A DNA stretch of 64,000 nt from Gloeobacter kilaueensis JS1. GTDB taxonomy: Bacteria > Cyanobacteriota > Cyanobacteriia > Gloeobacterales > Gloeobacteraceae. This document shows positions 35,639 through 48,617 of this stretch, in pieces; within the stretch, counting starts at the first letter, position 1; each line of letters starts with the position of its first letter. Below the pieces are notes generated by a model. It worked only from the letters and a program-made list of their open reading frames with translations, was not told the origin of the DNA and searched no databases. A program made the position numbers and the translations under genes. The stretch spans positions 1,612,001 to 1,676,000 of the forward strand of contig NC_022600.1 of the NCBI RefSeq assembly GCF_000484535.1. Reading direction: 5' to 3'.

Positions 35639-36427
35639 TTACGCACTAATAAAATCTTTCAAGCGGCATCGCTCGAAGACCTCTAGATTGCCTCCTTCTG
35701 TGCAGTTTACAATTTTTCGGCCTGCTTCTTCAAAAACAACCCGTGCAAGAGAATAAGCAGCTTCGCTACTGGACAGATCAGGAAGCTGCCATCTCATTCC
35801 ATCTGAAAAATACTTCGGATCAAAATGGTTCTCATCCTTAGCCGTTGCCAGAACAGTTTTATTGGGCGGCCCTTTTGTCGCAAAATTGTGATCACAGCCA
35901 ATTAAAGCTACCCGCTCAAAACCCATGTGGAAGGCAAGCTGCATAGCGACGAAGGTAACAGTATATCCTTGATAAATACTGATAGAGCAATCCCTTGCGA
36001 ATTTAACCTGGCTTGCAGAATGTAAGAATGTTACATTTTTACGTGCTTGAACATGCCTGGTGCCCACACTGTCAAGGAAAAGGGGGATGTCAGTACTGTT
36101 GAAAAAATGTTGATTTTGCTCAATCACAAACGGGTTTACTGAGACAATACAGGCTGGACGGAAGTCGGATTGTGCAAAAAGCAAGTTGATCTTGTTAAGC
36201 CCGAAAGTAAAGGCAGTGCGGAGTAGAGAAAGGTCTGAGCGGAGCAAGCTGGGGCCATTACAAACAATGACTGCCCGTTGAGCTGAATGCTTATTGAGGC
36301 AAGAGCGAAGTCTGTCACGAGAACGCCACGACTCAGCACTTAAATCCCACTTCAATCGCCTCAGCAGCTCCAGGGTAGCGTAGCGATAGGGATTAATCGT
36401 TGCTCTTTGTGAGTTCAAGACAGCCAT
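35639..36427 (-). CDS. DUF115/MptE-like family protein
   Basis: 262 residues. VIVCNGPSLLRSDLSLL near residue 53 is the DUF115 nucleotide-binding-like signature. FGLNKINLLF, YQGYTVTFVAMQLAFHMGF, LIGCDHNF and GMRWQLPDLSSSE are further conserved blocks. Relatives occur in polysaccharide and flagellin-glycosylation loci. The NGPSL motif also resembles the start of family 42 sialyltransferases, so a CMP-sugar-dependent transferase is conceivable. No proven function. Confidence 0.75.
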   Translation of the reverse strand: MAVLNSQRATINPYRYATLELLRRLKWDLSAESWRSRDRLRSCLNKHSAQRAVIVCNGPSLLRSDLSLLRTAFTFGLNKINLLFAQSDFRPACIVSVNPFVIEQNQHFFNSTDIPLFLDSVGTRHVQARKNVTFLHSASQVKFARDCSISIYQGYTVTFVAMQLAFHMGFERVALIGCDHNFATKGPPNKTVLATAKDENHFDPKYFSDGMRWQLPDLSSSEAAYSLARVVFEEAGRKIVNCTEGGNLEVFERCRLKDFISA

Positions 36428-36453: not shown

Positions 36454-37944
36454 TCAAAGAGCACTATAGCTATTTGTAGAAAGATAAATTGCGGTGGCTC
36501 CAACACAATAAGCCAGGATGATAGCCAGCGGAATCAAAGAGGTAGACAATTCAAACTGCCAGAACTTAAGCTGAAATGTTTTATAGGAGTAACGGGCGCA
36601 ATAGCGGGCGTAAAATCCGGCGTATCCTGCAAGCAATGCAGTTGGAAATGCGTAGACTCCAATAAAGGGGAACAGGATAAAACTGAAGGACAGGAAAATA
36701 AGACCGTGAACTACGCTGACGATGTGCCAGACGATATGGTTTGTTGTACTGTAAAGCTGGAGGTGCATTGCGCCATAGCGTTCAATAAAATAGCAAGTGC
36801 CGAGCAATCCCCACATCACTGGATTAACAAACTCGGCATGGCTACCGATAAGTTGTAGCAGAGAAGGTCCAAAAACGCCCAGGCCAATAAAGCAGACAAC
36901 AAAAGACCAGTAGGCCAGCCGCATACCTCTTGTCGCTACGGCAACTTGTTCAACAAGTTTGCCCTGGGAGCGCAGACGGGCCAGTAAGGGTAACTTGCTG
37001 TAGAAGGGTGCCTGGGAAAACTGGCTGACCGATTGAATGAGCCGCAAAGCTACAAGGTAGGATGCGATGCCAGAAGTCGCGCCTAACTGGGCATATACAA
37101 GGTTACTTGCCTGCATCAACCCAGCCGTAAAGACAGCACCCAGGCCACTCCGCCAGGCACTGGGCCAGACGCCCTCAAAAACCTCTGGGTACAACTTTCC
37201 ATATGTAAAAGAACTCAACCGTCTTTCTTCGACCTGTCTGCAAAGCCAGCGGTCCCTCAGCACCCCGACGACGATCCAGAGCTGATTAGATAAGACCAGG
37301 GCCAGTAGCTTACCACCTGTAATCAGAACGAGAAAGCCACTAAAAATAGCACCAAGTGAGGTAATCACCTGCCAGCGCTGCAGCAAAGCGATCTGGTTCA
37401 TTCCCTGCAACAGTGCATTGTATCTGTTGCCCCACAAAGCAACAGTCGATCCTAATAAAACAACTACCCAGGCAGCCCAGGCTTGATAGCTATCAGAGGT
37501 GAGTGAGATAGGTTTGGCAAGAGCGAGCGAGCCTAGAATTGCAAGCACACAAATAGAAATAAGTGTCAAGCGATAATAGATAACCTGCATAGTGGAGCAA
37601 ATTTGCTCCATCAAGCTCCAGTTGGCCTGACCGCTCCCTGTGAGATTTCCAGTGTCGCGAAGGTCTCGAATATTTTTAGCTCCACCCATGGCGAATGCAA
37701 CGACTCTGGCAAAGGTTGGAGCAAATCCAAGATCCACAAATGTTTGCAGGCTAATAATACTGCTCAGCAATGACCAGACAACAATATCTGCTGGAGTAAA
37801 TTGTCTAAGTACAAGCGGAAAGACGGCGATCAGGCTAAGAGTACGGGCAGCCAGACTACTCCAGGTAGTGAACGTCGGGGAATTCCAGAGCCTTAATGGA
37901 AAAGCCAGATATTTATGCAAAGCGCTCAAATTTATCGAAGACAT
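36454..37944 (-). CDS. Polysaccharide flippase (Wzx-like, MOP superfamily)
   Basis: 496 residues with about 12 membrane helices spread evenly and a basic loop in the middle (RDRWLCRQVEERRLSS). The topology and the locus match Wzx, which flips lipid-linked repeat units across the inner membrane. ATG at 37944. A gap of 39 bases separates it from the methyltransferase gene. Confidence 0.85.
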   Translation of the reverse strand: MSSINLSALHKYLAFPLRLWNSPTFTTWSSLAARTLSLIAVFPLVLRQFTPADIVVWSLLSSIISLQTFVDLGFAPTFARVVAFAMGGAKNIRDLRDTGNLTGSGQANWSLMEQICSTMQVIYYRLTLISICVLAILGSLALAKPISLTSDSYQAWAAWVVVLLGSTVALWGNRYNALLQGMNQIALLQRWQVITSLGAIFSGFLVLITGGKLLALVLSNQLWIVVGVLRDRWLCRQVEERRLSSFTYGKLYPEVFEGVWPSAWRSGLGAVFTAGLMQASNLVYAQLGATSGIASYLVALRLIQSVSQFSQAPFYSKLPLLARLRSQGKLVEQVAVATRGMRLAYWSFVVCFIGLGVFGPSLLQLIGSHAEFVNPVMWGLLGTCYFIERYGAMHLQLYSTTNHIVWHIVSVVHGLIFLSFSFILFPFIGVYAFPTALLAGYAGFYARYCARYSYKTFQLKFWQFELSTSLIPLAIILAYCVGATAIYLSTNSYSAL

Positions 37945-37983: not shown

Positions 37984-38925
37984 TTATTTTACAAGGCTGT
38001 TATAGCGTGCTTTGGGCAATTCCATACTGTAGGTATTCATATTGTTGTGTCTTGCATTTTTATGAAGTCTACTGTTTCTCACTTGAGTGTAAAGCCGAAC
38101 AGCTGATGCCAAAAAACGAACCACGTCAGTCCTGGAGAGTAAACCAACAGCTTCGGGAGCATACTCAGCCATTGCTGCAGCATGGACGATATGTTCATTC
38201 TCAAAAAGCTTGCGGTCACGCTCAGTCGGGGGATACATGGGAGGGAGAAGTTGCTCAAGATCCCTGACGATAATGTTCACTCCATTCCACCAACCGTTCC
38301 TGGACTCCTGCTGTTGCACGGCACTGGCATTGACCGGATGGCAGGCGGAATAAGCTTCAAAAGCAAGCTTGAATTCAGGATGCGTCACCAGGAAATCGCG
38401 ATTTGCCTGACGGACATGACGATAATTAGAATCATCTACTACAATCACTGCCTGCTGATGCAAATAGGGAATGACAAGTTCCAGGCACATTAACTGGCTA
38501 CGATAATCGTGGGGACCATCGACCAGATACAGAGCAACTTTACGGTCGCCAATCTCGGTCGAAAGTGTTTCTAGTGCATCCTCGTAATCTTTGTTGATCA
38601 AAACAGCGTTTTGGACGTTGAGCTGTGCCATCCGATCCTTGATGATCGCGAGGTTCTTACCTTCTGGATCGAAGAAAGCAAAATTGTCTATTCCGTAGCT
38701 TGGCAGTGAACGGCAGGCACTGGCTACAGATAAAAGAGTCAGTCCCTGAAAAACGCCCACCTCCAGGTAGCAGACACCGGCCTGCTCCGCAAAAAGACTG
38801 GCTATCCTCTGCAGAGCACCGACAAGTTTTTTGCCCGAGAAACCGGTAAGAATCCCGTCGGCATCGGCACTGAGCAGTCCTTCAGCCTCAGCGGCTTTTA
38901 TTGCGTCTATGACTTTGTTAATCAT
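37984..38925 (-). CDS. Class I SAM-dependent methyltransferase (Methyltransf_24 type)
   Basis: 313 residues. CYLEVGVFQGLTLLSVA is the SAM-binding glycine loop in its 'EVGVFQG' variant. IDNFAFFD and LYLVDGPHDYRSQLM follow, the latter a typical metal-binding Asp/His segment of TylF-like sugar or small-molecule methyltransferases. Likely decorates a glycan sugar. The C-terminal 60 residues are basic. Confidence 0.8.
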   Translation of the reverse strand: MINKVIDAIKAAEAEGLLSADADGILTGFSGKKLVGALQRIASLFAEQAGVCYLEVGVFQGLTLLSVASACRSLPSYGIDNFAFFDPEGKNLAIIKDRMAQLNVQNAVLINKDYEDALETLSTEIGDRKVALYLVDGPHDYRSQLMCLELVIPYLHQQAVIVVDDSNYRHVRQANRDFLVTHPEFKLAFEAYSACHPVNASAVQQQESRNGWWNGVNIIVRDLEQLLPPMYPPTERDRKLFENEHIVHAAAMAEYAPEAVGLLSRTDVVRFLASAVRLYTQVRNSRLHKNARHNNMNTYSMELPKARYNSLVK

Positions 38926-38943: not shown

Positions 38944-39744
38944 CTAGGGCTTGCTTGTCTTCTGCATTGTTTGCTTGACGATGGTTTTCATCCTGCTGAA
39001 AATTCGATCCTTTGTAGAAGGCTTCTTGATGATTCGTTGAGTGCCCGAAGGGCCATACACGGACTTGATGAGTTCGATCATGATTTTTTCTTGCGGGGTG
39101 CGAGGCAGCTGGCGCACAAACAAATAGTCTGCCTGGGAGGCAAAGGAATTTTGATATCCAGTCCAACCTGCTTCTTCAAATCCTTTGCTTTGCAGGCTGG
39201 CTTTTACCTCATCTTCAAGAATCATACCTTCATAGAGGGGGTAGCGGTAAAGCTCTAATTCAAGAGCAAGGCAGTCCTCCTCTAGATATTTCTGTGCTCC
39301 ATCAAGTACGAACGCCTCTCCACTTTGAGTATCGCTCTTCAAAAATGGAAAGCTGACTTTGTGCCCAAGGGACTGGTACAATTCTGCTAAGATTGTGTCT
39401 AGTTTCTTGACCCTACACGAAAATTGTCGAATGCTGCTTGAACGTTCAAACCACGTGTTATTAAGCGCAATGTTGCCTTCATTTTTAATCTGCTCGAAAT
39501 TTTGACGCACCCAATCAAAGTTTTGCTTTAGCAGAGATGAGCCCGTACCATTTTCTCCCGAGATATAAAAATTAGCCTCTCCATCAAAGTTCCAGACTGC
39601 ACAGTCATAGCGCAACCGTGTGCCCGTGAGAATAGGCAGCTCATTCGGCTCAAAGCTGAGCGTCCTACCCACCTTATCTGGATGATATTTCCAGGGAAGA
39701 TCCAGACCTCCAACCGCGCCAATATCGATAATATTTATCTGCAT
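38944..39744 (-). CDS. FkbM-family methyltransferase
   Basis: 266 residues. IIDIGAVGGLDLPW opens the SAM fold, followed by LSFEPNELPIL, a CRVKKLDTILAEL segment and FPFLKSDTQSGEAFVL (the FkbM 'D-x-(E/Q)G-E' motif). FkbM enzymes O-methylate sugars or other hydroxyls. It lies 18 bases upstream of the Methyltransf_24 gene. Confidence 0.82.
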   Translation of the reverse strand: MQINIIDIGAVGGLDLPWKYHPDKVGRTLSFEPNELPILTGTRLRYDCAVWNFDGEANFYISGENGTGSSLLKQNFDWVRQNFEQIKNEGNIALNNTWFERSSSIRQFSCRVKKLDTILAELYQSLGHKVSFPFLKSDTQSGEAFVLDGAQKYLEEDCLALELELYRYPLYEGMILEDEVKASLQSKGFEEAGWTGYQNSFASQADYLFVRQLPRTPQEKIMIELIKSVYGPSGTQRIIKKPSTKDRIFSRMKTIVKQTMQKTSKP

Positions 39745-39913: not shown

Positions 39914-40846
39914 TCACTGGCTCAAACCCACAGGAATGTACTGAGGAGACCAGTGACCCCACGGCATACCGTACTTACCGCTAAGTTTATAGAATTTAGC
40001 GAGGTTATCCTTGAGATAAGTACAGTTATGGTAGTTGCTGAGTACCTTGTGCGGCTCTTGTTGGCAGGCGGGAATTGCTCCAAAGAAGCCTACGAGGTCA
40101 TTTTCGCTAAAGCAATAGCCCTGGGACGGTTCGTGCAGCCAGGTAGCAGGTTGTTCTGTGCCTGAGGTTGTCACGGCCCAATATCCCTGGGGTTTGACAA
40201 TCCGATGAATTTCTTGTAGCGCCTGTGAAAGTGAAGTTATGGGGATATGTTCGATAGCCGACAGGGAAACCACTGCATCAAAGGATTTGGCTGGGAACTC
40301 GGGCATATGGCATAGGTTGCCGACGCACCAGTTAAGTTGTGCAGGCTGCCCATTCAGGTTATTCTGGCGTCGCCAGGTGTCATGAACACTTTCGTACCGC
40401 CAAGCTCTAGCCTCGGTGATCATGGACCAGCAACTAATCTGTTGCTTCAGCCGGGCGAGAACTGTTGTAGGAGGCGCAGCTTCGAGCAGTTGTGCATAGT
40501 CAGTAGTGACATGGCTGGGAAAGCGTTCGTACTTTGTGCCATAGCGCCGCTGGTAGGCAAGAGGCGGTTTTTTTAGAACCATGTCTACATTTGTGACTTC
40601 AAAACCTAATTCGCTCAGGAGAAATTGAACTGGACCGCCGCCACCGCCAGCATCCAGTACCCGCAATCCCTTAGGCCAGAACTTTATCTGCCGATAGATC
40701 CAGGTGAGGTCGGTGATATAGTGCCATCCCAATTGCGTCCGCCCCGTGATCTTCAAGAAATTCTCAACAAACTTAAAATCCACTGAGGCCAGTTGCTCCT
40801 GAGGCTCAATGAATTCGTACTTTAATGCTGGGGTTCGCTCCACCAT
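39914..40846 (-). CDS. Class I SAM-dependent methyltransferase
   Basis: 310 residues. VLDAGGGGGPVQFLLSELGFEV is the glycine-rich loop, VTNVDMV the acidic strand, and VVSLSAIEHIPITSLSQAL the Methyltransf_11 motif. N- and C-terminal extensions may bind the acceptor. ATG 40846 chosen, with GTG 40843 or 40849 also possible. Third methyltransferase of the locus. Confidence 0.82.
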   Translation of the reverse strand: MVERTPALKYEFIEPQEQLASVDFKFVENFLKITGRTQLGWHYITDLTWIYRQIKFWPKGLRVLDAGGGGGPVQFLLSELGFEVTNVDMVLKKPPLAYQRRYGTKYERFPSHVTTDYAQLLEAAPPTTVLARLKQQISCWSMITEARAWRYESVHDTWRRQNNLNGQPAQLNWCVGNLCHMPEFPAKSFDAVVSLSAIEHIPITSLSQALQEIHRIVKPQGYWAVTTSGTEQPATWLHEPSQGYCFSENDLVGFFGAIPACQQEPHKVLSNYHNCTYLKDNLAKFYKLSGKYGMPWGHWSPQYIPVGLSQ

Positions 40847-40886
40847 CACCTCGATCTGACGAATAAGTAGAGGACAAGACAGGAAT

Positions 40887-41633
40887 TTATCCTGGATCGT
40901 GCAATCGCACGCTTATGCCGCCATCTAGATTTAGAGAAGCGCCGGTAATGAAATCGGCCTGGGTCGAGGCGAGAAACAAAGCTGCTGAGGCAACTTCTTC
41001 TGGTTGGGCAATCCGCCCCACTGGATGCATCCGGGAGAGTTCTTCAAACTGTGCCTCTTTGCCGACGAAACCTGCCAGTAACATTGCCGTCGCTGTCGCG
41101 GCAGGATTGATCGCATTGACTCGCACTCTACCGCCCAAGTCGATGGCCAGAGCGCGGGTCAGGCCACCTAGGGCCGCTTTGCTCGTCGCATAGGTGACGA
41201 ATGCCGGTTTGGTCGCTATGGCGTGAACGCTGGAAATGTTTACAACGTTTCCGCCCACCCTCTCAAGAGCAGGTAACAGCCCCTGGATGAGCAAGAACGG
41301 AGCAGTCAGATTAATGTCGAGCGTCTGCCGCCATTCATCGAGTGTAATTTTTTCGGTGGAATTGAGAGGCTGGACGGCGGCGTTGTTGACCAGGACGTTG
41401 AGTCCGGACGGCTCCACAGCACTGTGCAGCTTCGCGAGCAATGCAGCGGAGCGCTCTTTATCGAAACACAGTTCTTGTAAGTCGAGTTGCATAAATAAAT
41501 CGCACTGGCAGTTGCCGTGCAGGCGATCGACTGCGATCACTCTATAACCCGCTCGGTGGAACGCACTGCAGAGCGCCTGGCCAATTCCTCCGATCGCCCC
41601 CGTGATCAGGGCTGTTCTTTCTGCGTCAGGCAA
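40887..41633 (-). CDS. SDR-family oxidoreductase
   Basis: 248 residues, classical SDR. TGAIGGIGQAL cofactor motif, NNAAVQ, catalytic SSVHAIATKPAFVTYATSK (S/Y/K) and a final DGGISV strand. The only usable start is a TTG at 41633, overlapping the dehydrogenase end by 8 bases. Within the CMP-sugar module it probably reduces or oxidises a sugar-acid intermediate. Confidence 0.85.
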   Translation of the reverse strand: MPDAERTALITGAIGGIGQALCSAFHRAGYRVIAVDRLHGNCQCDLFMQLDLQELCFDKERSAALLAKLHSAVEPSGLNVLVNNAAVQPLNSTEKITLDEWRQTLDINLTAPFLLIQGLLPALERVGGNVVNISSVHAIATKPAFVTYATSKAALGGLTRALAIDLGGRVRVNAINPAATATAMLLAGFVGKEAQFEELSRMHPVGRIAQPEEVASAALFLASTQADFITGASLNLDGGISVRLHDPG

Positions 41634-42555
41634 TTTTTAACAAACCGAACAGCAGTTGAATCGCTTTTTCACTCGCGCGCTGCACAGCTTCTGCTGTATT
41701 GGAGGCGTTGTGTGAACCAAAGATGCAGCGCTTGTGGCGATGCAGGGGCGAGGTGAGCGGCAGAGGTTCCTCCTCGAAAACATCGAGGGCTGCAGAATGG
41801 ACCTGGCCCGACTCAAGGGCAGCGACCAGAGCCTGTTGATCGATAAGCGGCCCACGGGCAACGTTGACGATGCGCACGCCGGGCCTGGTTCGCGCCAGAA
41901 CTTCAGCGTCGATCATGTGAAAGTTCTGGGCTGTGAGAGCGCAGGTGAGAACAATAAAATCTGCCTCATCGAGGCGCTCTGGCCAGGGTGCTGGCTCTAC
42001 GGCCAACCCGTCAACTGCCTTGAAGAAGGGATCGTAGACGATCACCTGCATATCCGCTGCCAACAGGCGCTTTGCCGCGCTGCGTCCAATGTCACCAAAG
42101 CCAACCAGTGCGAGTGTCTTATGGGTCAAAGAGATGCCGCAGGGTTTTGGCCAGCGGCCAGCGCGCACCTCGCGGTCAATCAAAAATGTCTCTCTCGCTA
42201 GAGCCGTGACGTAAGAAACCGCTACATCAGCTACCTCCGCCCCAAACATACCCGGTGTATTGAGGACTGGAATGCCCAGATCCTCTGCCGCTCCAAAATC
42301 GACATTGTCTACTCCGACGCCCCACTTTACAGCTGCCCGCAACGCTCCCTGTTTACCGGCAACGAAAACCTCCCGCGTGGCCGGGTCATCGCCAATAATC
42401 CAACCGTCAAATTGGGGAACGAGGGTGAGCAATTCATCGACGGTGAGGGTCTGTACGATGGGCGGACAGTAGACTTCTATATTTTTGTCCACAAAATAGT
42501 GACGGAACTCGTCGATCCGTCGCACCATCGGCGGACAGGTGATCAAGATACGCAT
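41626..42555 (-). CDS. D-isomer-specific 2-hydroxyacid dehydrogenase
   Basis: 309 residues. NAD-binding ALVGFGDIGRSAAKRL near residue 150, the Arg/Glu/His catalytic set (VNVARGPLID, ALDVFEEEPLP, FGSHNASN), and the substrate-loop KWGVGVDNVD. Related to phosphoglycerate and formate dehydrogenases. It lies between the cytidylyltransferase and the SDR, so it likely handles a 2-hydroxy or 2-keto acid in the same pathway. Confidence 0.87.
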   Translation of the reverse strand: MRILITCPPMVRRIDEFRHYFVDKNIEVYCPPIVQTLTVDELLTLVPQFDGWIIGDDPATREVFVAGKQGALRAAVKWGVGVDNVDFGAAEDLGIPVLNTPGMFGAEVADVAVSYVTALARETFLIDREVRAGRWPKPCGISLTHKTLALVGFGDIGRSAAKRLLAADMQVIVYDPFFKAVDGLAVEPAPWPERLDEADFIVLTCALTAQNFHMIDAEVLARTRPGVRIVNVARGPLIDQQALVAALESGQVHSAALDVFEEEPLPLTSPLHRHKRCIFGSHNASNTAEAVQRASEKAIQLLFGLLKIA

Positions 42556-42569
42556 CGGCTACACCAAAT

Positions 42570-43277
42570 TCAAGTGGTTGCCAGTTGTTGCTGTTGGGCA
42601 ATCATCTCGGCAATATCCCAGCCTTCTTGATCGTCGATATCCGCTGATTCTAGGCGGGGCGTTTCAAACATCATTGGCCGCTGGCCGATCCGGGCACCGG
42701 TCGCCAGAAAGCTCGCTTTTGTAAAGATGTACAGGTTGGAATTTTCCTCGAACCAGGCTTCGAGATCCTGGGTGCGGATCAGGTTCTGCGGGTCGTGGTT
42801 GACCGGGCTGCCATCGGCGCGATAAAAGCGCGTCTGAAAGCGATTGACTGTAAAGAGCGAATCGGCCTTGCCCGCAAGCTGGGCGTCGATAAAGGCTGCC
42901 AGTGCCGAGCGGATAGTACTTGCTTTAAGCAGAGGGTTGGTGGTGTGGGTCATCAGATAGATGTCAGCGTCTACGTTGGCAACATCGTCCGCAAGCACCA
43001 GATTCATGCTGACAAAGTCGCCGCAAATTTCGGGCCTGCGATCGCGAATCTGGACCCGGTCGCCGCCTACCAAGCCCTGATCAGCGAGAAGCTGACGCGC
43101 ATCGGTGTTGATGACGACGCGCTCGATTTCGACAATCGACAGCAGTGTATCGAGAATCCAGCGAAACAGGGGCTTGCCACAAAACGGGCGAAAATTTTTG
43201 CCTTTTACCCGCGCACTGTGGGCTTTCATCGGTAGCAAAGCAACTACCTGCGGTCGCACCTGAGCAGTTTTACTCAT
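42570..43277 (-). CDS. Acylneuraminate cytidylyltransferase-family protein
   Basis: 235 residues from ATG 43277, which overlaps the GT2 stop by 4 bases. ALLPMKAHSARVKGKNFRPF is the CTP-binding loop in the 'MKxHSxRVxGKN' variant, then GKPLFRWIL, VINTDARQLL, DIYLMTHTTNPLLKASTI (metal site) and DIDDQEGWDIAEM at the end. The family makes CMP-activated sialic, Kdo-like or other acids. No NeuB-type synthase is nearby, so the substrate is open. Confidence 0.87.
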   Translation of the reverse strand: MSKTAQVRPQVVALLPMKAHSARVKGKNFRPFCGKPLFRWILDTLLSIVEIERVVINTDARQLLADQGLVGGDRVQIRDRRPEICGDFVSMNLVLADDVANVDADIYLMTHTTNPLLKASTIRSALAAFIDAQLAGKADSLFTVNRFQTRFYRADGSPVNHDPQNLIRTQDLEAWFEENSNLYIFTKASFLATGARIGQRPMMFETPRLESADIDDQEGWDIAEMIAQQQQLATT

Positions 43278-44230
43278 ATATCCACGCGTGGGGCGGAAGT
43301 TGTCTCCAGCTCGTTCGGTTTTGCCGCTGATTGGGCGGCGGCGGCAGTTTCTAGATATCCAAAATACATTTCTTTTTTGTGGCGGGACAGGGTGCGGTGC
43401 TCCCAATTGCCCCGGTAGCTGCCCCAGAATTGCATCAGACGAAAAAGACAGATCTCTTTTAATTTTGATCCAAGAAGGCCCGATTGGATGGCAGCGCGGC
43501 TGTCTGACCAGATCGCTGCTGTCAGATAGCGCAGAAAATCGAGAAAGTGAATATGTACTTCGGGCATGATGTGCTGCAGAGCGATCGCCTCGCGCTCGTA
43601 GCGGTGCAGCACCTTTGACCACGACTCGTCGTGGTAGTGCCAGACCGCTGCTTCGGCGACGTAGGCGATTTGAAGCCCCTGAGCGATCAGGCGCTTGCCC
43701 AGTTCCATATCCTCCAGGCCGGTCAGGGCTTCGTTAAAAGGGTTGCGCAACCAGATCGGCCGTAGTAAAGCGGCGTTGGCGTTGTTGCAGAAAAAACCTG
43801 TCTGTGGAATGCGGCTGGCTGGTGGATAGAATTTACTGAAAACCTGCTTTTCACTGAAGCGCGTCTGCTCGCCGCCGAGTTGACGACCATAGGTAAGTAC
43901 TGCCCGCTGGGCTTGCAGGGGGTGCAGCAGTTGAGCCAACCACTGCGAACTGGTCGGGACGCAGTGGCCACTGATAAAAACCAGATACTCCCCTCGGGCG
44001 GCCTGGCAACCGAGGTTCAGCGAGCGACCGAAGGAGAAGTCTGCTTTTTGAATATGGACAAGCCGGCAGCCGAAGCGCTGGGCTATCTGAACGGTCCGAT
44101 CGGATGAGCCGGAATCGACGACGATCACCTCGCAGCCCAGATCCGCTAAAGTTTGCTCGGCAACCGCTTCCAACAGTTGGGGAAGATAGCGTTGCTCGTT
44201 GTAGGTGCGGATGACGATGCTGGCCAGCAT
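43274..44230 (-). CDS. Family 2 glycosyltransferase
   Basis: 318 residues. ASIVIRTYNEQRYLPQLLEA, VIVVDSGSSDRTV, FSFGRSLNLGCQAARGEYLVFISGH (acidic motif replaced by SGH) and NEALTGLEDMELGKRL. A C-terminal helical extension follows (YLTAAIWSDSRAAIQ). Coupled to the cytidylyltransferase by an ATGA overlap, which makes it the best candidate for the transferase of the CMP-activated residue. Confidence 0.88.
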   Translation of the reverse strand: MLASIVIRTYNEQRYLPQLLEAVAEQTLADLGCEVIVVDSGSSDRTVQIAQRFGCRLVHIQKADFSFGRSLNLGCQAARGEYLVFISGHCVPTSSQWLAQLLHPLQAQRAVLTYGRQLGGEQTRFSEKQVFSKFYPPASRIPQTGFFCNNANAALLRPIWLRNPFNEALTGLEDMELGKRLIAQGLQIAYVAEAAVWHYHDESWSKVLHRYEREAIALQHIMPEVHIHFLDFLRYLTAAIWSDSRAAIQSGLLGSKLKEICLFRLMQFWGSYRGNWEHRTLSRHKKEMYFGYLETAAAAQSAAKPNELETTSAPRVDI

Positions 44231-44245
44231 ACCGAATAGCGCTGC

Positions 44246-45040
44246 CTACAAGGAGGTGGGTTGCAGCCGCAGCTGAAAAGATGGCTGCAGGAGCTGGTAG
44301 AGCAACTCGATTTCTTCGCGGAAAACAGCATTTGGAGCAAACATATCCCAGTGCATCGGGACGACTGTCCGGGTGCCTATTTCATCGGCGAGCTGAAAAG
44401 CCTCACGCACGGACATGTTACCGAGAATGCCTCGCCTTTCGCGATAAAAGTTGCGCTCGTTGACCGGAAGCAGAGCAGTATCGATGGTGCCGAGCTGTTT
44501 GAGTGCTTCTACCAATTCGTCGGCAGGTGAAGTGTCCCCGGCATGATAGAGCAGCCGGCCCCGATAGTCGAGGACGTAGCCGACACAGAGCAAACAGCCG
44601 GACTCGTCCCTTTCGATGCACGGATGAACGGCAGGAACTGCCCGCACGCGCAGGTGTGGTCCAAGGGGCAACCACTCCTTTTCTGGAGCGAGCACCAGAC
44701 GCTCCGGCGCGATACCCAGATCGCTCAGGCATATCTTGACGGTGTTGGGACACAGAAAACGGCAGGTCTGGGAAGCGCGCGAAATCGGCAGCAATGTCTC
44801 CGGGTCGCAGTGGTCGATATGGATGTGAGAGATAAAAACCCAATCGGCGTCATCGATTGTCTCGGGCAGCACAGGAATGCTGATTTGTCTTCGCATATCC
44901 GGCCCCTCAACCTTCGCAACGTAGTCGCTAAGGTAAGGATCGATGTAGACCACCGTGTGCTCAAAGGTCAGCTTGAACCCCGCCTGTCCGAGGGGACGCA
45001 CAACAATCGCCTGCCTGTCATCGCTCGTCATCGCGCCCAT
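44246..45040 (-). CDS. UlaG-like metallo-beta-lactamase-fold hydrolase
   Basis: 264 residues. ISHIHIDHCDPETL (HxHxDH), AVPAVHPCIE, LYHAGDTSPADEL (metal-bridging Asp) and VVPMHWDMF show a complete metal site. Similar to L-ascorbate-6-phosphate lactonase UlaG and other lactonases. First gene of the long minus-strand EPS run, adjacent to the CMP-sugar module; it may open a lactone or hydrolyse an intermediate. Confidence 0.83.
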   Translation of the reverse strand: MGAMTSDDRQAIVVRPLGQAGFKLTFEHTVVYIDPYLSDYVAKVEGPDMRRQISIPVLPETIDDADWVFISHIHIDHCDPETLLPISRASQTCRFLCPNTVKICLSDLGIAPERLVLAPEKEWLPLGPHLRVRAVPAVHPCIERDESGCLLCVGYVLDYRGRLLYHAGDTSPADELVEALKQLGTIDTALLPVNERNFYRERRGILGNMSVREAFQLADEIGTRTVVPMHWDMFAPNAVFREEIELLYQLLQPSFQLRLQPTSL

Positions 45041-47615: not shown

Positions 47616-48617
47616 ATGGCACCGCTGGTCTGCAACTATTACGTCACCTACAAGTGCAACGCCCGCTGCCATTTTTGTGACATCTGGGCACTCACGCCGC
47701 CTCCGGAGGCAAGCTTCGAGACGATCCGCACCAACTTGATCGATCTGAGGCGACTGGGGGTCAAGTACGTTGACTTTACCGGCGGCGAGCCGCTTTTGCG
47801 CCCCGATATCGTCGAGATTTACACAGCCGCCAAGCGCCTGGGCCTGCTTACCAGCCTCACCACCAACACGATTCTGTATCCTAAAAAGGCGCAGCAGTTG
47901 CGGGGACTGGTCGATTTTTTAAATTTCTCCCTCGACGGGCCAGACGCCGCTTCCCACAACCAGTCGCGGGGCGTGGATCTATTTGAGCGGTTGATCGAGT
48001 CGGTGCGGTTGGCCCGGTCGCTGGGCGAATACCCGACGCTCAACTTTACGGTCACTGCTCAAAATTACGAACGCATCGCGGAGGTGGCCGAGCTGGCCAA
48101 CCGCCTGGAGGTGCGCGCCTGGCTCAATCCCGCCTTTACTGCCCACGAACATTACAACAACAACAAAAATCCCACCCCGGCCCTGGTTGCAGCGATTCGC
48201 CACGCCGCCGAACGCTATCGGGGCATCCTCGGCTACAACAAAGCCGCCCTTGCACTTATCGAAGCTGGCGGCAACCACACCGCCGATCCGCGCTGCAAGG
48301 CAGTCGAGGCGGTGATCGTCATCTCGCCCGACGACAAGCTGCTTTTGCCCTGCTACCACTTTGCCCAACACTCTGAGCCGATCGCAGGCCGACTTTTTGA
48401 ACTTTATAGTAGCGGCGAGAAAGTGGCCGAGTACCGCGCTTCCCAGGGGCGGCTATCGGTCTGTGAGGGCTGCACGGTCTGGTGCTACCTCATACCGAGC
48501 TTCTTTAAGGGGCTCGATCGCTACACGCTGCTCAACGGACTCAGCTACGCCGACGAATTTTTTGCCCGCCGCCGGGGCCGCCGCTCCCGGAGTGCGGCGA
48601 CGGCAGTGTTACACTGA
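47616..48617 (+). CDS. Radical SAM enzyme
   Basis: 333 residues. YKCNARCHFCDIW near residue 13 carries the CxxxCxxC cluster ligands; FTGGEPLLRPDI is the GGE motif. LNFSLDGPDAASHN and a TLNFTVTAQN segment complete the barrel. C-terminal Cys residues (LLPCYHFAQ, CEGCTVWCY) suggest a second, SPASM- or twitch-like cluster. It probably modifies a small molecule or peptide; substrate unknown. TACACT at 47578, after the previous stop, could be an internal -10 box. Confidence 0.88.
   Translation: MAPLVCNYYVTYKCNARCHFCDIWALTPPPEASFETIRTNLIDLRRLGVKYVDFTGGEPLLRPDIVEIYTAAKRLGLLTSLTTNTILYPKKAQQLRGLVDFLNFSLDGPDAASHNQSRGVDLFERLIESVRLARSLGEYPTLNFTVTAQNYERIAEVAELANRLEVRAWLNPAFTAHEHYNNNKNPTPALVAAIRHAAERYRGILGYNKAALALIEAGGNHTADPRCKAVEAVIVISPDDKLLLPCYHFAQHSEPIAGRLFELYSSGEKVAEYRASQGRLSVCEGCTVWCYLIPSFFKGLDRYTLLNGLSYADEFFARRRGRRSRSAATAVLH

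Follow-up and report, generated by a model that had tools for sequence, protein, structure and literature searches.

How might a bacterium come by a cytidine monophosphate (CMP)-activated acidic sugar when the usual 2-keto-3-deoxy acid synthase is missing? The question is raised by a gene cassette of Gloeobacter kilaueensis JS1, which lies in a stretch of 64,000 nucleotides (positions 1612001 to 1676000 of the single 4,724,791-bp contig; this whole stretch is the window, and coordinates below are positions within it). The formation of CMP-activated ulosonic acids is generally held to require a phosphoenolpyruvate (PEP)-dependent synthase, and genome surveys of nonulosonic acids depend on finding the gene for that enzyme. 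In order of transcription, and all on the minus strand, the cassette encodes a UlaG-like metallo-beta-lactamase-fold (MBL) hydrolase of 264 amino acids (aa), predicted to be a sugar lactonase (44246 to 45040, PF12706/PF13483); a GT2-fold glycosyltransferase of 318 aa (43274 to 44230, PF00535); a CMP-acid synthase of the CTP_transf_3 family, of 235 aa (42570 to 43277, PF02348); a D-2-hydroxyacid dehydrogenase (D2HDH) of the phosphoglycerate dehydrogenase (PGDH) group, of 309 aa and predicted to make a 2-keto acid (41626 to 42555, PF02826/PF00389); and a short-chain dehydrogenase/reductase (SDR) of up to 248 aa, a predicted aldose 1-dehydrogenase with an uncertain TTG start (40887 to 41633, PF13561). 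A sixth core gene, also on the minus strand (35639 to 36427, PF01973), encodes an MptE/DUF115 protein of 262 aa that we predict to be a CMP-ulosonate glycosyltransferase. It seems probable to us, if only just, that the product of this cassette is a CMP-activated 2-ulosonic acid destined for a surface polysaccharide and that it arises by oxidation of an aldose, with no PEP-dependent condensation.

An initial annotation made from the sequence had proposed that the first five of these genes make and transfer a CMP-activated acid without a NeuB- or KdsA-type synthase. Its family assignments agree with Pfam, and both of the overlapping junctions that it described are real: the GT2 and synthase genes share 4 nucleotides (ATGA), and the D2HDH and SDR genes share 8, provided that the TTG start of the SDR is used. 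The range that it gave for the set, 41626 to 45040, takes in the hydrolase, GT2, synthase, and D2HDH genes but leaves the SDR gene outside, and the MptE/DUF115 gene was absent from its set.

The synthase comes from an established family, of which it is a divergent member, and CMP-ulosonic acids are themselves familiar as donors. It matches PF02348 at 63 bits (cut-off, 22.6), and its closest solved chains are NeuA proteins; the PseF model gives 79 bits against a cut-off of 206, and the KdsB models give 19 to 21 bits against cut-offs of 193 to 255, so that it does not qualify as KdsB. The CTP loop PMKAHSARVKGKN, which had been singled out as a variant, is one and is also the norm for the family: across 52 relatives, P16, K27, and N28 are invariant and M17, S21, R23, and V24 are nearly so. 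Furthermore, 49 of the 52 have a histidine (His111) at the position of the glutamine in the Q-x-T-S-P motif of the NeuA structures. The mechanically listed open reading frame (ORF) for the synthase (42570 to 43622, 350 aa) opens too early, inside the GT2 gene; judging from the sequence, the true start is likely the ATG at 43277, which overlaps the GT2 stop. Elsewhere, one neighborhood (L095) holds two synthase-family copies on opposite strands (at about 7402, plus, and 13638, minus).

The closeness to NeuA structures would suit an ordinary activation of sialic, pseudaminic, or legionaminic acid or of 3-deoxy-D-manno-octulosonic acid (Kdo), with NeuB or KdsA encoded at a distance. So would the true NeuB found in 16 of 36 sampled cassette genomes and the plasmid cluster of Thalassovita, where kdsA has its own kdsB as a neighbor and stands away from the cassette synthase. 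The PseF score speaks against this explanation, however, as do the other 20 of the 36 genomes, from which a true NeuB is absent, and the 96 sequences searched (the window and 95 neighborhoods), none of which holds NeuB or KdsA; for the window, this bears out what the initial annotation had reported. It had also proposed a look elsewhere in the genome, and we searched that genome family by family. The synthase is its only CTP_transf_3 protein above the curated cut-off. It has no true NeuB, the best score with a NeuB model being 23 bits versus 209 to 326 for true NeuB proteins in other cassette genomes, and no KdsA, the KdsA model reaching 125 bits, a DAHP-synthase level, against a cut-off of 314. 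Given these NeuB and KdsA scores, the three proteins of the 3-deoxy-D-arabino-heptulosonate 7-phosphate (DAHP) synthase family in this genome are most likely enzymes of the aromatic pathway. Activation of Kdo or sialic acid with a distantly encoded synthase was thus rejected for a genome that has neither NeuB nor KdsA; the explanation is largely refuted here, and we hold it to be quite improbable.

Next, we looked into how the cassette is conserved. The genome collection encodes the synthase in at least 570 loci. The best 80 relatives, at 65 to 76% identity, are carried by cyanobacteria, alpha-, beta-, and gammaproteobacteria, Verrucomicrobia, Nitrospirota, Planctomycetes, Chlorobi, Desulfobacterota, Chloroflexi, and others, and the gene set spans at least eight bacterial phyla. 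In the phylum sample, the synthase occurs at 66 to 100% identity in six genomes (that of the window included) and at 42 to 45% in six more; three further Gloeobacter genomes also carry the cluster. In 91 neighborhoods picked by similarity to the query, a few of them records duplicated under different handles and some on contigs that end early, genes on the same strand within 3 kb of the synthase include a GT2 in 83, a D2HDH in 84, and an SDR in 61, and an MptE-like gene lies anywhere in the stretch in 62. The linkage of GT2 and D2HDH to the synthase is far beyond chance, and the co-occurrence that the initial annotation had asked about is borne out by these counts. Moreover, the MBL hydrolase is fused to the N-terminus of the GT2 in many loci (about 555 aa), and the GT2 is fused to the synthase in one genome (G175). 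That the genes are mere neighbors with no joint function, a by-product of surface-polysaccharide islands, would fit the setting, a glycan island of an ordinary kind that includes a Wzx-like flippase gene and, by reading, Wzc-like and Wza-like proteins nearby; with the gene order, the overlaps, the two kinds of fusion, and the many phyla against it, this explanation is very improbable.

The synthase also occurs on Rhodobacterales plasmids of 77 to 141 kb, in Thalassovita gelatinovora (pAge77, L152), Gemmobacter, and Sulfitobacter. The Thalassovita cassette is arranged in two blocks, SDR-SMP30-MptE and GT-CMP-PGDH, beside kdsA and kdsB.

What, then, might the hydrolase do? The model of the MBL hydrolase (mean predicted local distance difference test [pLDDT] of 94) has its best PDB matches in 3bv6, a UlaG-like Vibrio protein, and in the ascorbate-6-phosphate lactonase UlaG itself (2wyl/2wym), and the metal ligands of the fold (H72, H74, D76, H77, H139, D169, and H230) are invariant in 29 relatives. 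These features are those of a UlaG-like lactonase, at a score below the curated UlaG cut-off (NF008688, 49 bits versus 306). The idea of one strictly conserved hydrolase family proved wrong, as three families alternate across the 91 neighborhoods: MBL in 37, SMP-30/gluconolactonase in 11, and PF04199 in 8, with none within the stretch in 35. They are mutually exclusive, no locus having two types (shuffled labels average 7.9 such doubles), and in loci L101 and L102 the SMP-30 gene lies precisely between the MptE and GT2 genes, which is the place of the MBL gene in other loci.

The hydrolases are also complementary genome-wide. All 13 of the cassette genomes with no nearby hydrolase (none in the stretch or, for genome G078, none within the cassette) encode a strong SMP-30 elsewhere (157 to 296 bits), compared with 2 of 28 genomes with MBL and 1 of 7 with PF04199 (3 of 35 together) at a threshold of 150 bits (Fisher test, P value = 2.9 × 10−9; cyanobacteria alone, P value = 5.7 × 10−4). 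This threshold was set after the scores had been seen; 100 bits gives a P value of 1.1 × 10−6 and 190 bits a P value of 1.6 × 10−8. A hidden MBL elsewhere in the genomes lacking a hydrolase was considered and rejected, as a search of the other 13 at E 1e-15 found none. Among Gloeobacter genomes, that of the window has the MBL and only weak SGL matches of 39 bits, and its three congeners have no MBL and an SMP-30 at 292 to 297 bits. Several of the distant SMP-30 genes are 50 to 80% identical to cassette SMP-30 genes, and some are sited within the same glycan cluster or close to it, just outside the neighborhood that was read. Since three unrelated folds fill one slot and one of them is the classical sugar lactonase, lactone hydrolysis appears to be the most economical role for that slot. 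The interchangeable lactonases thus join the conservation and the fusions in supporting the central idea of the initial annotation, a NeuB- and KdsA-free module for the synthesis and transfer of a CMP-activated acid.

The two dehydrogenases have intact catalytic residues. In the D2HDH, the catalytic arginine and histidine are kept in 75 of 75 sequences, and the candidate glutamate positions are kept in 74 to 75. The SDR has its cofactor motif, and the catalytic serine and tyrosine are kept in 60 of 60 sequences and the lysine in 58 of 60; it is nearest to SDRs of the glucose 1-dehydrogenase type (structure match, 3vtz), at 181 bits with NF005559 and so under the curated cut-off of 215. In the pathway that we propose, the SDR would oxidize C1 of an aldose to give a lactone, which the UlaG-like hydrolase (in relatives, the SMP-30/gluconolactonase or the PF04199 hydrolase) would open to the aldonate. 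The D2HDH would then oxidize C2 of the aldonate to yield a 2-keto acid (a 2-ulosonate), and the synthase would join the hemiketal hydroxyl of this acid to CMP, giving a CMP-ulosonate. Finally, the MptE/DUF115 protein would move the acid onto a glycan assembled with the GT2 and exported by the Wzx-like protein. The substrates, the order and direction of the steps, and the identity of the acid are what we infer here.

The D2HDH is closest to phosphoglycerate dehydrogenase, and this, together with the replacement of the usual synthase glutamine by histidine, could be taken to mean that the substrate is a short acid or one that is not a sugar, resembling glycerate or hydroxypyruvate, with CMP linked through another oxygen, as phosphonate cytidylyltransferases do. 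The SMP-30/gluconolactonase and the glucose-dehydrogenase-like SDR indicate sugars instead, and the fold of the transferase is one that uses CMP-ulosonic acids; we regard a short acid as improbable.

Three Opitutales loci (L111, L117, and L124) bear on where the 2-keto acid comes from. They encode the synthase at 65 to 66% identity and no GT2, D2HDH, SDR, or hydrolase of the cassette type. Upstream of the synthase gene in each of them is a gene for an HpcH/HpaI aldolase, directly so in L124 (with an ATGA overlap) and L111, and with one diverged CMP-synthase-like gene intervening in L117; an MptE-like gene lies near the synthase in all three. The aldolases belong with the known HpcH/HpaI enzymes HpaI, GarL, and 2-keto-3-deoxy-L-rhamnonate aldolase, and their nearest named relatives make 2-keto-3-deoxy acids, but unlike the named members, all of them fall below the curated cut-offs of those models. 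On the simplest reading of these gene contents, the aldolase and the set of SDR, hydrolase, and dehydrogenase would be alternative routes that supply a 2-keto acid. The presence of the aldolase at loci that have none of the trio of SDR, D2HDH, and hydrolase is what would be expected if the trio is a supply route rather than a means of decoration. The initial annotation had the hydrolase and dehydrogenases shaping the acid; they do appear to be involved, but more probably in building the 2-keto acid than in decorating a ready-made one. The intervening protein of L117 (8321 to 8998) is a second, strongly diverged CMP-synthase-like protein that has no Pfam match and keeps NHHP...RTH...YMEENS; it may be a degenerate or noncatalytic paralogue.

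Several points weigh against an oxidative origin of the acid. An aldolase acting with pyruvate would yield a 3-deoxy acid, unlike the oxidation of an ordinary aldose, and the products of the two routes may thus differ. The oxidation of a 2-hydroxy acid by nicotinamide adenine dinucleotide (NAD) is uphill, and CMP activation would have to pull the D2HDH step. The relatives of the PF04199 proteins are mostly amide hydrolases (the best model for the cassette protein is an arylformamidase, below its cut-off), so that the bond shared by the three hydrolase families could be an amide or an ester. The genome counts behind the SMP-30 complementarity are phylogenetically nonindependent, and several of the genomes are incomplete metagenome-assembled genomes. 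In addition, the SDR is missing within 3 kb on the same strand in about a third of the loci, the MptE gene of the window is set apart from the SDR gene by four genes, and a distant Acuticoccus locus has an aldolase and a diverged D2HDH together. That locus (L153, plasmid NZ_CP094833.1) encodes the synthase at 45% identity with the HpcH/HpaI aldolase, the diverged D2HDH, a HAD hydrolase, and an NAD(P)-dependent oxidoreductase, perhaps as another version of the supply route.

Some of these points would favor a different role for the trio: the SDR, D2HDH, and hydrolase would act on an ulosonic acid that already exists, on its precursor, or on the CMP-sugar and remodel it (for example, by inverting a hydroxyl through oxidation and reduction and by removing an acyl group or lactone), with the acid itself supplied by primary metabolism or an unlinked aldolase. 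The aldolase is a likely source of 2-keto acid in some relatives, once alongside a diverged D2HDH; amide cleavage is common among PF04199 enzymes; and the SDR is not always close by. Remodeling nevertheless fits poorly with the three Opitutales loci, in which the aldolase stands where the whole trio is missing, and with a complementary gene that is a sugar lactonase and so points to lactone hydrolysis. We consider it an unlikely, if credible, alternative to the supply of the acid by oxidation of an aldose.

Which protein would transfer the acid? The transfer step that the initial annotation placed in the module stands, but the MptE/DUF115 protein is a likelier transferase than the GT2. It matches PF01973 at 50.1 bits (cut-off, 34.6), and N57, G58, P59, and L61 of its NGPSL motif are invariant in the family. 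With its structural model (pLDDT of 93.5), the top Foldseek match is the Maf glycosyltransferase 5mu5, whose central-domain fold it shares (E 2.9e-7, probability 1.00, with a TM-score of only 0.49 by query length), followed by the archaeal pterin kinase 8sd5, archaeal members of the PF01973 domain being pterin kinases, and then, more weakly, by the human sialyltransferase ST6GALNAC2. Among 31 members of the MptE family, 19 match the WaaZ Kdo transferase model and 10 match PseD, and the best PDB matches of the family profile are CstII sialyltransferases (E about 0.01). The Maf central domain, which belongs to the same Pfam family, has been reported to be CstII-like, and Maf enzymes have been reported to accept CMP-linked acids (PMC11339370). 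Given its likeness to Maf, WaaZ, and CstII and its retention near the synthase in the Opitutales loci without a GT2, the MptE/DUF115 protein is most likely the CMP-sugar transferase of the cassette.

The GT2 has no classical DxD (SGHCVP stands in its place), and a motif survey found an ED motif, GLEDM. It may build the acceptor or use the CMP-donor. As the CMP-sugar transferase it is disfavored rather than dismissed, the three Opitutales loci without it having kept the MptE gene. Fusion to a CMP synthase does not oblige a glycosyltransferase to use the CMP-sugar, an example being the Campylobacter CgtA-NeuA fusion.

Downstream of the SDR gene, and on the same strand, lie three methyltransferase-like genes, the Wzx-like flippase gene, and the MptE/DUF115 gene. 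The first encodes a Pfam-supported S-adenosylmethionine methyltransferase (Methyltransf_11, 39914 to 40849) found in a minority of the relatives' clusters; the second, an FkbM-like methyltransferase (38944 to 39744) that scores below the cut-off and is conserved in Gloeobacter and other cyanobacteria; and the third, a Methyltransf_24 protein by Pfam (37984 to 38925), conserved in two of the three other Gloeobacter genomes. The Wzx-like protein (36454 to 37944, 496 aa; NF041503, 164.8 bits, below the cut-off of 300), a gene for which occurs in 23 of the 91 neighborhoods, is predicted to tie the cassette to surface-glycan export. Between 46661 and 48617, downstream of a UDP-glucuronate-decarboxylase-like gene, we read a nucleotidyltransferase-like ORF and a radical-SAM/SPASM-like protein (47616 to 48617), relatives of which also adjoin the cassette in the Gloeobacter congener with a 4,659,019-bp contig. 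Two other proteins recur near the cassette in relatives. One, a neighbor in 13 loci (L073, L070, L061, and L052 among them), gave a weak Methyltransf_24 match in its scanned member (L073), and its gene is in several cases immediately upstream of that for MptE. The other is a protein of roughly 380 to 417 aa with an MptE-like GTGPS motif (L103, 8232 to 9371, and five other loci), which had no Pfam match in its scanned member (L103).

The cassette resembles several known systems and differs from each. As in the NeuB-NeuA pathways of nonulosonic acids, a CTP_transf_3 enzyme would CMP-activate an acid, a CMP-sugar transferase of the CstII/Maf kind would follow, and the setting is a surface-glycan island; unlike them, the cassette has no NeuB, the SDR, hydrolase, and D2HDH stand in place of the condensing enzyme, and the synthase, with its histidine for glutamine, is only distantly related to NeuA. 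The Kdo pathway (KdsA, KdsC, KdsB, and WaaA/WaaZ) likewise has a CMP-activated ulosonic acid, as we propose here, and a transferase that the MptE/DUF115 protein resembles (WaaZ), whereas the genome of the window has no KdsA and the Thalassovita plasmid carries a kdsA-kdsB pair in addition to, and separate from, its cassette synthase. With the Maf flagellin glycosyltransferases, the MptE/DUF115 protein shares its Pfam domain, the NGPSL motif, and the closest fold, but it is a single-domain protein without the Maf flanking domains and is found in polysaccharide islands. Oxidative sugar catabolism uses the same three enzyme types (aldose dehydrogenase, lactonase, and 2-ketoaldonate enzymes) in the same proposed chemical order; the cassette enzymes sit instead with a CMP synthase and glycosyltransferases, and their product would enter a glycan rather than be degraded. 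We found no description of the cassette in the open-access literature on CMP-hexulosonic acids, this gene combination, or Gloeobacter polysaccharides, which is weak evidence of novelty, as subscription papers were outside the scope.

We suggest, tentatively and with some doubt, that a widespread oxidative route, free of PEP condensation, provides CMP-hexulosonic (or similar) acid donors for bacterial surface glycans, together with a matching family of DUF115 transferases. Confirmation of the oxidative route would add a new way of reaching a type of donor that is already known. If the proposal is true, a family of acidic surface sugars carried by cyanobacteria, Proteobacteria, Verrucomicrobia, Nitrospirota, Planctomycetes, and other groups would escape the current surveys of nonulosonic acids. 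In that case, a role would also be found for the lone "acylneuraminate cytidylyltransferases" of genomes without sialic acid and for DUF115 genes that now carry a pterin kinase annotation.

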